A stretch of 64,000 nucleotides of DNA. Origin: Gracilimonas sediminicola (GTDB lineage Bacteria > Bacteroidota > Rhodothermia > Balneolales > Balneolaceae). Under the pieces are notes generated by a model that did not search any database, was not told the DNA's origin, and was given only the letters and a program-made list of their open reading frames with translations. Below, piece by piece: positions 42,033-50,172 of the stretch. Made by a program: the position numbers and the translations under genes. The first letter of the stretch is position 1; every line of letters begins with the position of its first letter. The stretch covers positions 248,001 to 312,000 of the forward strand of contig NZ_JANDBC010000003.1 in the NCBI RefSeq assembly GCF_024320785.1, written 5' to 3'.

Positions 42033-43343
42033 TTATTTTTGGCGGAAAACCATGGTAATCGGAACGCCGAGGAACCCAAATCGTTCCCGGATTTTATTTT
42101 CAATGTACTTGCGGTAATTCGGGGGCAGTTCGTGTGGACTGTTCATGAAAAACTTAAACACCGGTGGATTGCTTTTAACCTGAGTAGCATAAGTAATTTT
42201 TAACTGCTGTCCCCTTTTCATAGGCAGGGGCTTCTCTCCCAGCATTTGCTCCAGGAAGTCGTTGAAGTCTGGTGTGGAAATTTCTTTTCTGCGTTCGGCT
42301 ATTACTTCATCAGCTACATCCAAAACGCGGTGAATCCGGGTTTTGTTCAACGCGGAAATAGTCACGATTGGAACATAATAAAGCTGAGGAACCGAGGTGT
42401 AAATATAATCCTCAAACTCGCGTACGGTATTTGTGTCTTTTTCAGGAACCAAATCCCATTTATTAAGGACGATAACCAGGCCTTTATTAAATTTCTCTGC
42501 TTCGCGGATTACCCGTTTATCCTGAGCATCAAAGCCTTGCATCGCATCCACAATAAGAATGGCTATATCACACTCGCGTATGGCCCGATCGGTGCGGATG
42601 GTGCTGTAGAACTCAATGTTCTCCTTTACTTTGGTGCGTTTACGCAGTCCGGCTGTATCTACAAGCAGGTATTCTTTGTCGTCATATTCCAGGTTACTGT
42701 TGATGGAATCGCGGGTAGTTCCGGCAATGTCGGTAACAATAGCCCTTTCGTCATTGAGTAAAGCATTAAACAAACTGCTTTTTCCTACATTCGGGCGACC
42801 GATAAAAGCCAGTTTTGGAATATCATTCTCCTCTTCCGGCTCTTCTTCCTCCGGCAGCAATTCCACAACCCGGTCCAATAAATTACCGGTTCCCGTTCCA
42901 TTGATAGAGCTCACAGGAAACAGATCTTCAATGCCAAGTTCATAAAACTCGGTGGAGTTCATGCGTCGTTCTTCGTTATCAGCTTTATTACTAACCAACA
43001 ATACGGGTTTATCCTGCTGGCGCAATAGATTAGCAACGGCTTTATCGAGGGTATTGATGCCATCCTTTACATCCACCACAAATAATATCACATCCGACTC
43101 TTCGAGCGCAATGTGTACCTGTTCGCGGATTCCCACAACCATGACATTCATTTCATCAGGCAGATATCCTCCGGTGTCAATTACGGTGAAGTCGCGACCG
43201 TTCCAGAACGATTCTCCGTAGTGTCGATCCCGGGTTACACCGTACTCATCGTGAACAATTGCTTTACGGGTTCCTATGAGTCTGTTAAATAATGTGGATT
43301 TACCAACGTTGGGGCGTCCTACAATGGAAACTACTGGGAGCAT
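42033..43343 (-). CDS. der: Ribosome-assembly GTPase Der (EngA)
   Basis: The 436-residue protein has two tandem GTPase domains, each with a P-loop (GRPNVGKSTLFN and GRPNVGKSSLFN), a switch (VTRDRHYG and GTTRDSINS), and NKAD and NKWD motifs. A C-terminal KH-like domain follows (RGQQLKITYATQ). This is the signature of Der, which helps mature the large ribosomal subunit. It lies 89 bases upstream of nuoI on the minus strand. A small membrane protein gene starts divergently at 43410. Confidence 0.96.
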   Translation of the reverse strand: MLPVVSIVGRPNVGKSTLFNRLIGTRKAIVHDEYGVTRDRHYGESFWNGRDFTVIDTGGYLPDEMNVMVVGIREQVHIALEESDVILFVVDVKDGINTLDKAVANLLRQQDKPVLLVSNKADNEERRMNSTEFYELGIEDLFPVSSINGTGTGNLLDRVVELLPEEEEPEEENDIPKLAFIGRPNVGKSSLFNALLNDERAIVTDIAGTTRDSINSNLEYDDKEYLLVDTAGLRKRTKVKENIEFYSTIRTDRAIRECDIAILIVDAMQGFDAQDKRVIREAEKFNKGLVIVLNKWDLVPEKDTNTVREFEDYIYTSVPQLYYVPIVTISALNKTRIHRVLDVADEVIAERRKEISTPDFNDFLEQMLGEKPLPMKRGQQLKITYATQVKSNPPVFKFFMNSPHELPPNYRKYIENKIRERFGFLGVPITMVFRQK

Positions 43344-43409: not shown

Positions 43410-43655
43410 ATGCTTCAAAGCTTTTATGACAATCTCGGCTTCTTCGGCGCGCTCATTACCGCGTTCTCTCTGTTTATCTTTTTCATTTTGTGGATAGCGG
43501 GAATCGCAGGCATCTCTCTACCCTATGACGGCGGCCAAAAGAAAGGCAAAGACTGGCAGATTATATTGGCCGTTTTATTCCCACCCTATCCGGTTATATG
43601 GTTAATCGTGGACATGTACCTGCAACGAAAATATATGCGTGAAGAGGATAATTAA
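43410..43655 (+). CDS. Small two-helix membrane protein
   Basis: The 81-residue protein has two hydrophobic segments (ALITAFSLFIFFILWIAGIAG and IILAVLFPPYPVIWLIVDMYL) around a basic loop. No family is recognised. It is convergent with the outer-membrane gene that ends at 43668. Its start is 66 bases from the der start in divergent orientation. Confidence 0.6.
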   Translation: MLQSFYDNLGFFGALITAFSLFIFFILWIAGIAGISLPYDGGQKKGKDWQIILAVLFPPYPVIWLIVDMYLQRKYMREEDN

Positions 43656-43667
43656 GCTGAGCTCTGA

Positions 43668-43934
43668 TTAAAAAGGAACCACGGCTTGTACTCTATAGTA
43701 CATATCCGATTTAGCATCGGTGAATAATTGGTGAGCCGGTTGAGCGACCCCAAAAGCGTGAGAAATGGATAACCCGGCTATGGAAATTTCATTTTTCAGT
43801 TCTGCTCCTGCTCCCCATCGTTGAATGGTTCCGGTTTCACCGGATTCTGACCGGGCGTCCCAAACAATCCCGCCGTCTGTGAACAGTGAAATGCTTACTC
43901 CTCCCAATCTAACGAATCCCAATATCTGCGTCTG
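43668..43934 (-). pseudogene. C-terminal barrel end separated by an in-frame TGA
   Basis: Directly after the TGA at 43935-43937 the same reading frame continues for 88 codons. It opens QTQILGFVRLGGVSISLFTDGG and ends VQAVVPF. It reads as the last strands of the beta-barrel of the upstream protein, and its final Phe is the usual C-terminal signal for barrel insertion. It has no start signal of its own, so I consider it a fragment of the gene at 43935-46598 rather than a separate gene. The TGA may be a mutation, a read-through site or a sequencing error. Confidence 0.7.
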
Positions 43935-46598
43935 TCACGATGGTATAAATGGGATTCGGTATTCAACACTACCAAAAGCTACCTGCTTGCCGGTTACAAA
44001 TTTCCGATATCCCCTGATTCGCTCATTATCACCAAAAAACTGAAGTGGAATATCATTAGGCAGACTGATATCAACATTGTCGTACCGGGAAAATCCGATA
44101 TAATTTTGAGGCAGATTATTGCCCCATTGAGATTGGAATCTTCCTTCCAAAAAAATCCTGTTCAATCCAAGAAAAGGCTGAACGGTATAGCCATGAATAT
44201 CAGAAGTTAGCGTTCGGGTGTCCGATCCAATAATTTTCTCGGAAGCTTTAACGCTCAATTGAAGTCCGGTTCCATCCAGCGGGTGGTAGCTGTTATTCTT
44301 CCAGGGACGCTGTTTCTTGATTTGCCAGCTTAGCTGAAGATCTGTAACCGTTGCATTTTGCGGAGTAGCGAGATTCGGGTTTGATGTGAACCGGTTTTCT
44401 CCCATCGGATCAGTTGAATAATGCCGGAACCTGGCCGACCAGCTACTGTTTTGATAGGAAGAAGAAAATACATCCAACGGCCAGTTTATGGCAATATCTG
44501 CTCCGATGTACTCCTCAAACAGGAATTCTTCTCCGTAATACTGTCCATTCTCCGGTATTTGATATACCGAAAAGGTCAGTGTTGGGTAAAGCTGGTTATT
44601 GATATAGGATAGCGCCCCGTAGGACTTATTCAGTGGATCGGGAATGGAAAGCCACCCTCCTCCTGAAATAGTATGTTTAGCCAGCGGTTCCGTCCAGTTA
44701 GAGGTGGCAAATACCCCCCAGTCGTTTGCATCGGAATAATAGGGAAAGCCAAAAGAAGCAATGTGTGTCAGATTCTGAAATGCATTGTAGGAATACCGGT
44801 CGGTAATTAATGCAGGATTTGGTTTAATGTTTGATGGAATTTCATTTTCAGGAGACTGATGCCTCCAGCTGGCATAGGTTTCCGGAAGATTCAATTCCGG
44901 CTGATAGACTTCCCGTCCGGCAGAAACAAAGTGCAGTTTATCCTGTGTGCGGGTTTCTGAAGCTCCTATAACCAAATGCTCTTCACCGGTTGAGTCAAAA
45001 TCGGAAACCCATCCAAATACTTCCCCTCCTGTAAACAGATTGGTAAACCGGGATTCTACACCGGATTCGAAATCATAAATAAAAACATTGGGGACTTCAT
45101 CTCTCAAGGAAATGTAAGCTATTTTGCTGCCGTCCGGACTTAGAATGGCCTTTCTATTATCAACTTGTTCCGGGTCTATGGTTTTCTCCGATCCGGTTTC
45201 GGGGTCAATGAGAACCAAATTTCGATCTCCATTTTCAGCAAACCTGTGAAGCAGCCAGACATTTTCACCCTCAACCCAAAGCGGCCACAAGAGCTGAATA
45301 TCCCCAGAGTAATCAGTCAGCTTTTCCTCTTTTCGAGTTTCCAGGTTCATTACAAACAGGTTTCCGGTCCCTCCCTCATTTACGATATACCCAATTTGAT
45401 TTTGGGATGAACCTGCAGCCGGGAATTTGGCTTTTCGGTTAACGGTAAGCCGGGTTTCTTTCTCTTTTTCTAAATCATACAAAAATATATCGTTGATCAG
45501 TGAAGAATGCTTCCCTCTTACCATTCTTGAATAAAGAAGGTGTTGAGGGTCCAGCCAGTTCAAATCAGAATTAATGGCTCCTTCCCCAATCAGTGTGTTC
45601 TGCCTGGATGAATCAGTTGAAGTGACGTACAACCTGCGTACCGGTCGGGACATGGACGTGAGAGACAGAACAGCCAGCAGGCTATCATCGGGGCTTACAG
45701 AGGCATCAAAATAAAACTGACCTGGAAAGCTGAATTCATCTGCATGTAGGGAATCGGTACGCTCCATTTGGGATGCCACCGTATTGTAATACACATTTAC
45801 ATGCTTTCGCCATCTGTCATAAAATCCACTATAACCCCCATCTATTGTTTCTTCAAAGGCATTGCCAAAATCATGATACCTGATCAACCCAAACAACTTT
45901 TTTCGATGCTGCAACAGGTTTGCAAGAGAAGTATCTCTATATTGCTCAGCAAAGTAACGCAGTTGTGAATTTCCCATAGCATAGAGCAAACGCCCGTCTT
46001 CAAGGGACTGCCCGGAGCTGTAGTTCAGGTCGTCATCAAAAATTGCTTTACGCAACCAACGGTCGCCCCGTTGAGAATCCCACTTTTCCGTTTCATATTG
46101 AGCCAGGCCTTCAGTCCAAAAACCGGGCAGTGGATTTGCAAAGGTATATTGAAGCAGGCCAAGTGGTGATTTCACCGCCTCAAAATGAAAAATATGAGCC
46201 AATTCATGCGCTATTACCTTCCGAAGCCACTTCTCCTGCCCCGTCCAGATTTCGCTGTAATCGTTTAAATTCACCCAAATATTGGTGTACGGCCGGCTGA
46301 ATGGAACAGCGAAGCCATTATTGACTTCATCTTCGTCTGAAAGATAAATGCGTATTTTTTGATCGAAAGTAACTTCAAGATTTTTGGAAAGAGCTTCATA
46401 AGTTTGCTCAGCAATAGCAGCAGCCTCACCCTCAATTCCGGCAATCCTCTCCGGATACATAATGAGGAAATGCTCCGTTTCAGCTACCTGCCAATTCAGT
46501 TCGGGGTGATTTCGTCCACTGGTAGAATTAAAGCCCTGTGCAAATAGCAGCTGAACTGAAAATGATAAAGCGATGAATAGTATTGACTTCTTGAACAA
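43935..46598 (-). CDS. Exported metalloprotease/propeller/beta-barrel protein, interrupted at the end by TGA
   Basis: The 887-residue protein has a signal peptide (LSFSVQLLFAQ) and an N-terminal gluzincin-like domain with VIAHELAHIFHFE (HExxH) and GFWTEGLAQYE, the likely third ligand helix. A TolB/WD40-type propeller occupies the middle (SPDGSKIAYIS). The C-terminal part, after about residue 580, is aromatic- and beta-rich, like an outer-membrane barrel. It ends FGSVEYRIPFIPS at a TGA, yet the frame continues sensibly to 43668. Full length would be about 976 residues. Confidence 0.82.
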   Translation of the reverse strand: MFKKSILFIALSFSVQLLFAQGFNSTSGRNHPELNWQVAETEHFLIMYPERIAGIEGEAAAIAEQTYEALSKNLEVTFDQKIRIYLSDEDEVNNGFAVPFSRPYTNIWVNLNDYSEIWTGQEKWLRKVIAHELAHIFHFEAVKSPLGLLQYTFANPLPGFWTEGLAQYETEKWDSQRGDRWLRKAIFDDDLNYSSGQSLEDGRLLYAMGNSQLRYFAEQYRDTSLANLLQHRKKLFGLIRYHDFGNAFEETIDGGYSGFYDRWRKHVNVYYNTVASQMERTDSLHADEFSFPGQFYFDASVSPDDSLLAVLSLTSMSRPVRRLYVTSTDSSRQNTLIGEGAINSDLNWLDPQHLLYSRMVRGKHSSLINDIFLYDLEKEKETRLTVNRKAKFPAAGSSQNQIGYIVNEGGTGNLFVMNLETRKEEKLTDYSGDIQLLWPLWVEGENVWLLHRFAENGDRNLVLIDPETGSEKTIDPEQVDNRKAILSPDGSKIAYISLRDEVPNVFIYDFESGVESRFTNLFTGGEVFGWVSDFDSTGEEHLVIGASETRTQDKLHFVSAGREVYQPELNLPETYASWRHQSPENEIPSNIKPNPALITDRYSYNAFQNLTHIASFGFPYYSDANDWGVFATSNWTEPLAKHTISGGGWLSIPDPLNKSYGALSYINNQLYPTLTFSVYQIPENGQYYGEEFLFEEYIGADIAINWPLDVFSSSYQNSSWSARFRHYSTDPMGENRFTSNPNLATPQNATVTDLQLSWQIKKQRPWKNNSYHPLDGTGLQLSVKASEKIIGSDTRTLTSDIHGYTVQPFLGLNRIFLEGRFQSQWGNNLPQNYIGFSRYDNVDISLPNDIPLQFFGDNERIRGYRKFVTGKQVAFGSVEYRIPFIPS

Positions 46599-46645: not shown

Positions 46646-48667
46646 TTAATCCGTCAATTGCTGTTGGTTTCCTTCCTCAATTTGCTGTTGTTGTTCCTCT
46701 TCCACGAGCTTCCATTCTTCAACCAAATCGTTGTTCATATCTTTTAGAAAGCGGGATGGTTGCGTGAAATAATCGCCATAGGCTGATTGTGCCAGCACCG
46801 GATAACTGAAGTATAGCATGTCTTTGGCGCGGGTTGCGGCTACATATAACAGTCGCAGTTCCTCGTCAAGCTGTTCCTCATCCTCAACTGAATATGCTGA
46901 AGGTATAATACCATCCAGGCACTGAATGATGAAAACGTGCTTCCATTCAAGTCCTTTTGCAGAATGAATAGTACTCAGGATCAGTGGGGCTTCCTCCTTG
47001 GTTTTCTGCTCGGTATCAACGGCTGTTGCAGTAATGGGATCAAGAGCCAGTTCTTCCAGCATTTTTGGAAGCGATGTAAAGCTTTCCGAAACGTTAACAA
47101 AAGCCTCTAAGTCTTTAAGGCGCTTTGGATAGTCGTCGTATCGATCTTTGCAAAAATCACGGTAATAATCCACAACCAACTCAACAACTTTAGCCACCGA
47201 ATGATCATTTTCTTTCAGAGCAACCAGAAGTTTACTGAGCACTTTAAGCTGATCGATATATGATTGACTTGTGGTGTCAGACAGATCCAGTCGGTACGGG
47301 TTTTTGGCAAGGCGAATCCATTCAAATAAATCCTGGGCCGTTTTTGGGCCAATTCCATCCAGTAGCATCAAAACCCGGTTCCAGGCAATGGTATCCATAG
47401 GATTGACCAGCACCCGGATATGAGCCAGCACATCTTTAATATGCGCAGCCTCGGTGAATTTTTGACCACCGTATTTCACAAACGGAATATTCTTGCGGTT
47501 CAGCTCCACTTCCAGATCAAATGAATCGCGGCCATTACGGAACAACACGGCCATTTCATTCAGCTCCATCTCCTGTTCTCTGAGCTGCAACACCGCCTGG
47601 GTTATAAAACGGCTTTGATCGTGCTCGCTGGAAGATTGTACCAATGCAGGCAGCTCACCGTCCTTAATCTCTGAATAAAGCTGTTTATCAAATTTGAAGC
47701 TGGCTTGTTTAAGCAGGTTGTTGGCTACATTCAGAATTTGTGGGGTTGAACGGTAATTTTCTTCCAGTTTAATCAGTTTAGTGCCTTCAAATCGCTCAGG
47801 GAAATCCATGATGTTTTGGTGATCTGCTCCCCGAAACGAATAAATGCTCTGAGCATCATCCCCAACGGCCATCACGTTGCCATGTACACTGGAAAACAGC
47901 TCAGTTAACTCCGCCTGTAGTTTATTGGTATCCTGGAACTCATCCACCATTACAAACTGATTCTGAGAAGCTACTTTAATCCGTATATCTTCATGCTGTG
48001 TAAGTAATTGGCGTGTTTTTATAAGAAGATCGTCAAAGTCCATTACATAATTCTTCTCCTTATACTCCTGGTATGCCAACCCCACCTGCTGGATCTTTTC
48101 TTCCTGTTCCAAAAACTGAGGATATTGCTCCTGTAAAACGACCCTCAAATCGAGATGCTTATTGATGCAGGTACTGATAATATTCAGCAGCGTATTTTTG
48201 TTTGGAAACCTTTTCTTCTTTTTGTTCAGCTTCAACTCGGTCCGTACAAACTGAATGACCTCCAGTGCATCGGCAGTATCTATAATCGTGAAATTGGAAG
48301 GATAACCGATGATCTCTGCGTGCCGGTGCAACAGCAGGCTGCAGTAGAAATGAAATGTCCCACCCTGCACCTGCTTGCAACGCTCGTCAAGTATATTGCT
48401 TGCCCGGTTCAGCATTTCTTTTGCGGCCCTTCGGGTGAAGGTAAGAAGCAGAATATTGGATGGCTTTACGCCACTTTCCACTAATCGAGCTACCCGGTGG
48501 ACTAATGTCCGGGTTTTTCCTGTGCCTGCACCCGCTACAACTAAAGCTGGCCCCTTTTCATGGAAAACAGCATCCAGCTGCTGTTTATTCAGTAAATCAG
48601 CATACGGAATGGAATAGTCTTCAGGTCGTTTTCGGGGCTCTTCTTTTTTGAGAACGAATTTTTTCAT
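46646..48667 (-). CDS. UvrD/Rep-family ATP-dependent DNA helicase
   Basis: The 673-residue protein has the superfamily 1A helicase motifs: Walker A AGAGTGKT, DEFQDTN, VGDDAQSIYSFRGA, ENYRST, and the C-terminal STIHSAKGLEW and LYVAATRAKD. It unwinds DNA in repair or recombination. PcrA, UvrD and Rep cannot be separated, so no symbol is given. A low-complexity glutamine-rich end (EEEQQQQIEEGNQQQ) is present. It starts next to the divergent 2H phosphoesterase gene (109-base gap) and ends 48 bases before the metalloprotease start. Confidence 0.93.
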   Translation of the reverse strand: MKKFVLKKEEPRKRPEDYSIPYADLLNKQQLDAVFHEKGPALVVAGAGTGKTRTLVHRVARLVESGVKPSNILLLTFTRRAAKEMLNRASNILDERCKQVQGGTFHFYCSLLLHRHAEIIGYPSNFTIIDTADALEVIQFVRTELKLNKKKKRFPNKNTLLNIISTCINKHLDLRVVLQEQYPQFLEQEEKIQQVGLAYQEYKEKNYVMDFDDLLIKTRQLLTQHEDIRIKVASQNQFVMVDEFQDTNKLQAELTELFSSVHGNVMAVGDDAQSIYSFRGADHQNIMDFPERFEGTKLIKLEENYRSTPQILNVANNLLKQASFKFDKQLYSEIKDGELPALVQSSSEHDQSRFITQAVLQLREQEMELNEMAVLFRNGRDSFDLEVELNRKNIPFVKYGGQKFTEAAHIKDVLAHIRVLVNPMDTIAWNRVLMLLDGIGPKTAQDLFEWIRLAKNPYRLDLSDTTSQSYIDQLKVLSKLLVALKENDHSVAKVVELVVDYYRDFCKDRYDDYPKRLKDLEAFVNVSESFTSLPKMLEELALDPITATAVDTEQKTKEEAPLILSTIHSAKGLEWKHVFIIQCLDGIIPSAYSVEDEEQLDEELRLLYVAATRAKDMLYFSYPVLAQSAYGDYFTQPSRFLKDMNNDLVEEWKLVEEEQQQQIEEGNQQQLTD

Positions 48668-49563: not shown

Positions 49564-50172
49564 TTAAAAAATATTTTTATAAGAATCTTCAGGAATTGTC
49601 TTGTAAGATAGCTCGTAAAATCCCTCAACTGTTTTAGGTAATTCCAGCAGTTTAAGTGCAAGATTGATGTTGCATAGATTTCCATTTCTAATCTCACAGT
49701 AGTCAGGGAATGAAGAAAATTCCCAATGTTCAATTCTTTCAACTAACCCGGCTTTGTGTGGGTTTTGATGTATATAAAAAAAGCAGTTCGCCAAATAATT
49801 ATCATGCAAAAATCTTTGTTCGTTTAACGATTTAGCCTTTGTTCTTTTTCTAAATAAAGAGCCTGATCGGCCATATTTTCTGTTTATTGACTGAGTGTAA
49901 GAGCTAAGTAGAGAAGCTATCTTTTTGTTTAGTGGGTTTAATTTTTTGGTACGCTCGGTTGTATGATAATCTATATTGTAATCATCATTTATAATTAGAA
50001 GCCAGTGGAAATGGTTGGGCATTAAACACCAGGCGAGTAAGGAACAATCAGATCTAAAAGCCTTTCTCATCTTTTTCAAGAACAAGAAATAATCTTCTTT
50101 CTCAAAGAATATTCTATCTCTGTTATTTCCTTGATTATAAACGTGATATACGTGCCCCGGAAGAAAATTCAT
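49564..50172 (-). CDS. REP-associated tyrosine transposase (IS200/Y1-like)
   Basis: The 202-residue protein begins NFLPGHVYHVYNQGNNRD and has the HUH-type motif MPNHFHWLL with the metal-binding His pair. YTQSINRKYGRSGSLFRKR and YIHQNPHKAGLVERIEHWEFSSF further on are typical of the RAYT family. Such proteins cut and rejoin single-stranded REP hairpins; this copy appears intact. It lies between two direct palindromic repeats, which are its likely substrates. Confidence 0.92.
   Translation of the reverse strand: MNFLPGHVYHVYNQGNNRDRIFFEKEDYFLFLKKMRKAFRSDCSLLAWCLMPNHFHWLLIINDDYNIDYHTTERTKKLNPLNKKIASLLSSYTQSINRKYGRSGSLFRKRTKAKSLNEQRFLHDNYLANCFFYIHQNPHKAGLVERIEHWEFSSFPDYCEIRNGNLCNINLALKLLELPKTVEGFYELSYKTIPEDSYKNIF

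Follow-up and report, generated by a model that had tools for sequence, protein, structure and literature searches.

An in-frame TGA codon in a gene for an Omp85-type barrel protein of Gracilimonas sediminicola: probable incipient loss of an apparently dispensable gene

Introduction

A long reading frame on the minus strand of the Gracilimonas sediminicola genome is split near its 3′ end by a single TGA codon. The question raised by this locus is whether the codon marks a gene that has recently been broken, a stop that is read through during translation, or an error in the assembled sequence. The frame was analysed within a window of 64,000 nucleotides (the whole stretch of DNA considered here), and in comparison with nine congeners and more distant relatives.

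Results

The interrupted reading frame

Translation of 46598..43668 on the minus strand yielded two segments, each closed by a stop: one of 887 residues and one of 88 that ends in VQAVVPF. The first segment comprises 887 sense codons from a TTG start (43938..46598), the in-frame TGA occupies 43937-43935, and the 88 codons that stay open past it are closed by a TAA that ends at 43668 (tail and TAA, 43668..43934). In the five of the nine congeners that carry the gene, the tail aligns along its full 88 residues and immediately follows the upstream part (94, 68, 52, 51 and 51% identity), and it is therefore homologous coding sequence and not a chance open frame. An ORF that starts with a TTG inside the tail appeared in the list of ORFs of at least 80 codons; it would hold only barrel strands, and the tail was rejected as an independent gene on that basis. 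The locus is best annotated as one interrupted gene, rather than as two genes or as the gene for a complete shorter protein.

Predicted architecture of the product

The 5′ part opens with a signal-peptide-like start, as judged by eye, and continues with an HExxH peptidase-like domain, a TolB-like β-propeller and approximately the first 12 strands of an Omp85-type barrel. These assignments derive from the translation and from weak matches to Pfam and NCBIfam models, among them Peptidase_M48 and DPPIV_N/PD40; the TolB matches were below the cut-off. A profile constructed from eight relatives (one sequence being cut by its contig end) matched TolB structures with an E value of 3.4e-17. PD40 was found in seven of these eight relatives, Omp85 (PF01103) in five (best E value 7.6e-9) and Peptidase_MA_2 in two, and all eight share without exception the residues H131, E132, H135 and E163, the first three from HExxH and the last a downstream Glu. 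The 88-residue tail alone matched Omp85 weakly, with an E value of 2e-4 and a score of 21.4 bits that is below the Pfam cut-off of 24. Judged from these sequence matches, the gene is predicted to encode a protein with peptidase-like, TolB-type propeller and Omp85-type barrel domains.

The location of the stop within the barrel was estimated from two models of the Gracilimonas mengyeensis orthologue, both of which served for rough strand counting only. Sixteen main strands were counted in the low-confidence model of the barrel alone (mean pLDDT 54.9); the full-length model had a mean pLDDT of 56.9, with the barrel mostly below 50. In the former, the conserved VRGYR stretch sits just before strand 12 and the interruption site (Leu 300 of the barrel fragment) falls after that strand, so that truncation would cost the product about four strands together with the terminal Phe. 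The homologous tail would, on this low-confidence strand layout, supply those last four or so strands. Foldseek placed BamA chains at the top of its list with low TM-scores, whereas VIA-align ranked the porin CymA first and returned mostly porins, with BamA, FhaC and CdiB among the rows. Because the two fold comparisons differ, the family was assigned from Pfam and not from the fold.

The same domain order is found in proteins of the Balneolaceae and relatives that combine a Peptidase MA/M48-like domain, a TolB-type (PD40) propeller and an Omp85-superfamily barrel. These proteins share with the broken gene the HExxH motif, the propeller, a V/I-RGYR stretch before the last strands and the terminal Phe; the present copy differs from them in being interrupted. 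The family and PDB searches named no characterised member of the same architecture. The likeness to BamA and TamA, members of the Omp85 superfamily, lies in the barrel family assigned by Pfam in the relatives and in the BamA chains that head the Foldseek list. Unlike BamA and TamA, the relatives have no POTRA domain among the families listed for them, and their N-terminus consists of peptidase-like and propeller domains. An assembly function such as that of BamA and TamA is not implied by the Omp85-type barrel found here.

A preliminary description of this locus had given the coordinates, the 88 open codons and the terminal Phe, all of which proved right on translation. Its proposal that a large outer-membrane protein is split by the TGA agrees with the frame and the homologous tail, and its expectation that truncation would remove the last strands and the insertion signal fits an Omp85-type barrel, as far as a barrel model of low confidence allows.

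The stop codon is absent from relatives

A total of 39 loci, 29 from one search and ten from another, was scanned for the codon corresponding to the TGA; three had no match at the site. It is apparent that the TGA (43935..43937) is unseen in any relative examined, with a sense codon present at all 36 covering loci. The encoded residue is Leu in 34, while Ser and Thr were found once each, in L030 and L032, which are distant matches at 30 and 31% identity and perhaps paralogues. Two pairs (L009/L034 and L013/L039) are probably duplicate records, which leaves approximately 34 distinct sequences among the 36. Twenty of the 29 loci from the first search were taken as full-length single-frame copies; all 20 read through the site and end in PF, and thus in the terminal Phe. 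The alignment of orthologues that the preliminary description had proposed as a check accordingly revealed a stop in none of the 36, and its guess that a Leu codon lies one base away matches the residue that predominates in this column.

The nearest species, G007, shares 95% protein identity with the broken gene; 176 of the 2931 bases differ, one of them within the TGA codon. The species of the broken gene is represented by one assembly.

Selection on either side of the stop

In comparison with G007, dN/dS was 0.107 before the stop (888 codons, one codon ahead of the TTG included) and 0.165 after it (88 codons), and the corresponding dS values were 0.22 and 0.15. Purifying selection is thus evident on both sides, which suggests that the break is very young and that decay has not visibly begun. 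A gene free of constraint for much of its own branch would be expected to show a much higher dN/dS. The tail differs from that of G007 by nine synonymous and five nonsynonymous changes, numbers that afford little power and do not distinguish decay from constraint. No clear relaxation was observed in this downstream part, at that low power, and a base error or efficient read-through would give the same result.

Distribution of the gene in the genus

Two genes flank the broken gene and served as synteny anchors: 42033..43343 (minus strand), which we take from sequence resemblance to encode a Der-type GTPase, and 46646..48667 (minus strand), presumably, on the same grounds, a gene for a UvrD/Rep-type helicase. 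The gene is situated between these neighbours in G004, G005, G007 and G008, and the G002 copy comes after the helicase gene, with the GTPase gene elsewhere. In the remaining four of the nine congeners (G001, G003, G006 and G009) the interval between the anchors gave no match to either gene part at E values up to 1. The gap in these four, measured between tblastn ends, ranges from 323 to 397 bases, and their best gene matches anywhere are only of paralogue strength. The G009 assembly is 83% complete, and its GTPase–helicase locus is contiguous. Two diverged paralogues are also present in the source genome itself; their frames are open over 1126 and 982 codons.

A tree of the two flanking proteins, midpoint-rooted without an outgroup, places G003 inside the gene-bearing group (support 88), unites G001 and G009 in one clade and pairs G006 weakly with G008 (63). 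If only losses occurred, this tree implies at least two of them, and probably three; transfer between lineages could contribute to the patchy presence. The gene copies of two more distant relatives, G022 (L020) and G052 (L024), are split between two frames and are either broken or misassembled. Because the gene is missing from the same spot in four of the nine congeners, and is split in G022 and G052, it looks dispensable.

A small gene of 81 codons (43410..43655, plus strand) separates the broken gene from the GTPase gene. A Pfam search gave no match for it and, by eye, congeners without the broken gene retain it in the stretch between the two anchors. An IS200-like (Y1) transposase-type ORF, judged by eye to be of the REP-associated kind, was observed at 49564-50172 of the window (minus strand), with a score of 20.9 bits against a cut-off of 23. 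Promoter-like and terminator-like sites around the broken gene were about equal in number to those in shuffled sequences.

Assembly quality

An error of base calling or assembly, with the gene intact in the living organism, would account for the single base of the codon that differs from G007 and for the purifying selection on both sides of the stop. The assembly looks good (3.57 Mb in six contigs, the window lying in contig 3), however, and the TGA lies outside any homopolymer. The error explanation is considered unlikely, although it is the most probable of the alternatives. It is further disfavoured by a second gene of the same genome, for a Rieske-type oxygenase, whose two early stops are hard to explain as one error.

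That gene emerged from a comparison of 316 orthologous ORFs with G007, made in both directions; one direction flagged 20 ORFs, the other 14. Among these ORFs, clear early in-frame stops were found in this genome only in the broken gene and in the Rieske-type ring-hydroxylating oxygenase gene (L110; G000:C3:54806-55912, minus strand), which is outside the window and carries stops at codons 333 and 366 of 368. The latter is intact in G005, G006, G007 and G008, and no match was detected in the other five of the nine congeners. Stops at codons 2, 4, 7 and 15 of four source-genome ORFs were set aside for uncertain starts. Also set aside were stops in the last eight and the last one codons of two ORFs, in a repeat-rich ORF and in one ORF that carries a large in-frame insertion. 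Two stops of G007, at codon 2 of one ORF and at codon 21 of a 131-codon ORF, were treated in the same way. One G007 gene (G007:C1:984177-986201), histidine-kinase-like by eye, has one in-frame TAA at codon 637 of 674 and is open over 674 codons in the source genome.

Indels were inspected in 15 of the 20 ORFs flagged in the one direction, the broken gene being among the five left out, and in four of the 14 flagged in the other; the flagged ORFs left out include one of 1900 codons whose alignment has 14 frame-changing gaps (net frame 0). Uncompensated single-base indels in the inspected ORFs were confined to the uncertain ends (the first 138 or the last 17 bases), with two exceptions, a repeat-rich ORF and an ORF that carries a net in-frame insertion. 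In the 138-base case the frame is intact from a later Met. Overall, the pattern resembles normal gene turnover in an assembly that is clean.

Recoding and read-through

Read-through of the UGA at some rate, giving a little full-length protein and a low-level function, is regarded as improbable, and as a weaker candidate than an error in the assembly. A UGA followed by C, as found here, is a leaky stop context, and the frame beyond the stop is both intact and conserved. Belinky et al. 2021 (PMC7918605) report dN/dS below 1 for many bacterial genes that carry in-frame stops, and suggest read-through. Against it stands the absence of a stop from all covering loci; no relative examined stops at this site, which argues that there is no conserved recoding.

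Specific routes of recoding found no support. TGA ends 85 of 298 stop-to-stop frames of at least 200 codons in a 464 kb sample, eight of them as TGAC (the present site is included in both counts); it is an ordinary stop in this genome, and reassignment of UGA is not supported. A search of the genome, which is 97% complete, with the tRNA-Sec model (RF01852) gave nothing over the cut-off, the best of seven weak matches scoring 45.7 bits against 47. Calling of tRNAs at these seven loci placed every match on an ordinary tRNA, the best on a tRNA-Ser. For SelB (TIGR00475), the best score in the same genome was 189 bits against a cut-off of 242 and covered only the first 263 of 581 positions, a partial match that would be expected from other translation GTPases. 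Control genomes passed the cut-offs in the same searches (five of 14 for tRNA-Sec and two of 14 for SelB). Selenocysteine incorporation finds no support in these results, nor in the orthologues, none of the 36 covering loci having the stop. Anticodon stems of 4 bp in tRNA-Trp have been linked to UGA read-through (PMC13092985); the one tRNA-Trp examined here has a 5-bp stem, unlike the 4-bp forms described in that source, and this route found no support either. The RNA after the stop folded no better than shuffled sequences (z −0.79).

Read-through is thus a residual possibility that finds no positive support beyond the intact frame. Still more speculative, and slightly less probable, is the proposal that the stop is genuine and that this lineage tolerates it and reads through it, so that little of a costly surface protein is made, under a short-lived and revertible throttle on expression; read-through of this kind is suggested for some bacterial in-frame stops in the account of Belinky et al. 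(PMC7918605).

Discussion

Taken together, the data make it likely that an outer-membrane protein gene, apparently a dispensable one, has been cut short by a very recent nonsense mutation and is now an incipient pseudogene. The disabling change is absent from the orthologues, all 36 covering loci having a sense codon. Of the options raised in the preliminary description, the recent nonsense mutation is the best supported, read-through drew no positive support beyond the intact frame, and a base error is possible though unlikely.

If the nonsense mutation is real, release factor 2 would be expected to terminate translation at the UGA, and the resulting 887-residue product would carry the peptidase-like and propeller domains and approximately 12 of 16 barrel strands. 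Lacking the last four strands and the C-terminal Phe signal, this product would presumably not be inserted by BAM and would be degraded in the periplasm. In time the gene may decay as did the copies that related species have already lost. A retained function of the truncated protein, for instance in the periplasm as a barrel-less peptidase/propeller protein, is scarcely credible, since the stop, while leaving the peptidase-like and propeller domains upstream of it, would fall inside the barrel and not before it on the low-confidence model, giving an aggregation-prone partial barrel, and no relative examined stops at this site.

The in-frame nonsense mutations described by Belinky et al. 2021 (PMC7918605) resemble the present one in the single stop and in the purifying selection on the flanking coding sequence. 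In-frame stops with retained purifying selection are reported there to be widespread in bacteria, so the present case is of a known kind. It differs from the cases treated in that account in that the stop was found in one genome only, and the test based on stops shared by several genomes is therefore inapplicable. A literature search for pseudogenes together with Gracilimonas gave the Niabella soli genome paper as its match.

The case resembles gene loss of the ordinary sort and not a novel mode of decoding. The locus provides a clean example of a gene that is apparently taking its first step towards loss, with no decay visible yet, and that several members of the genus lack.
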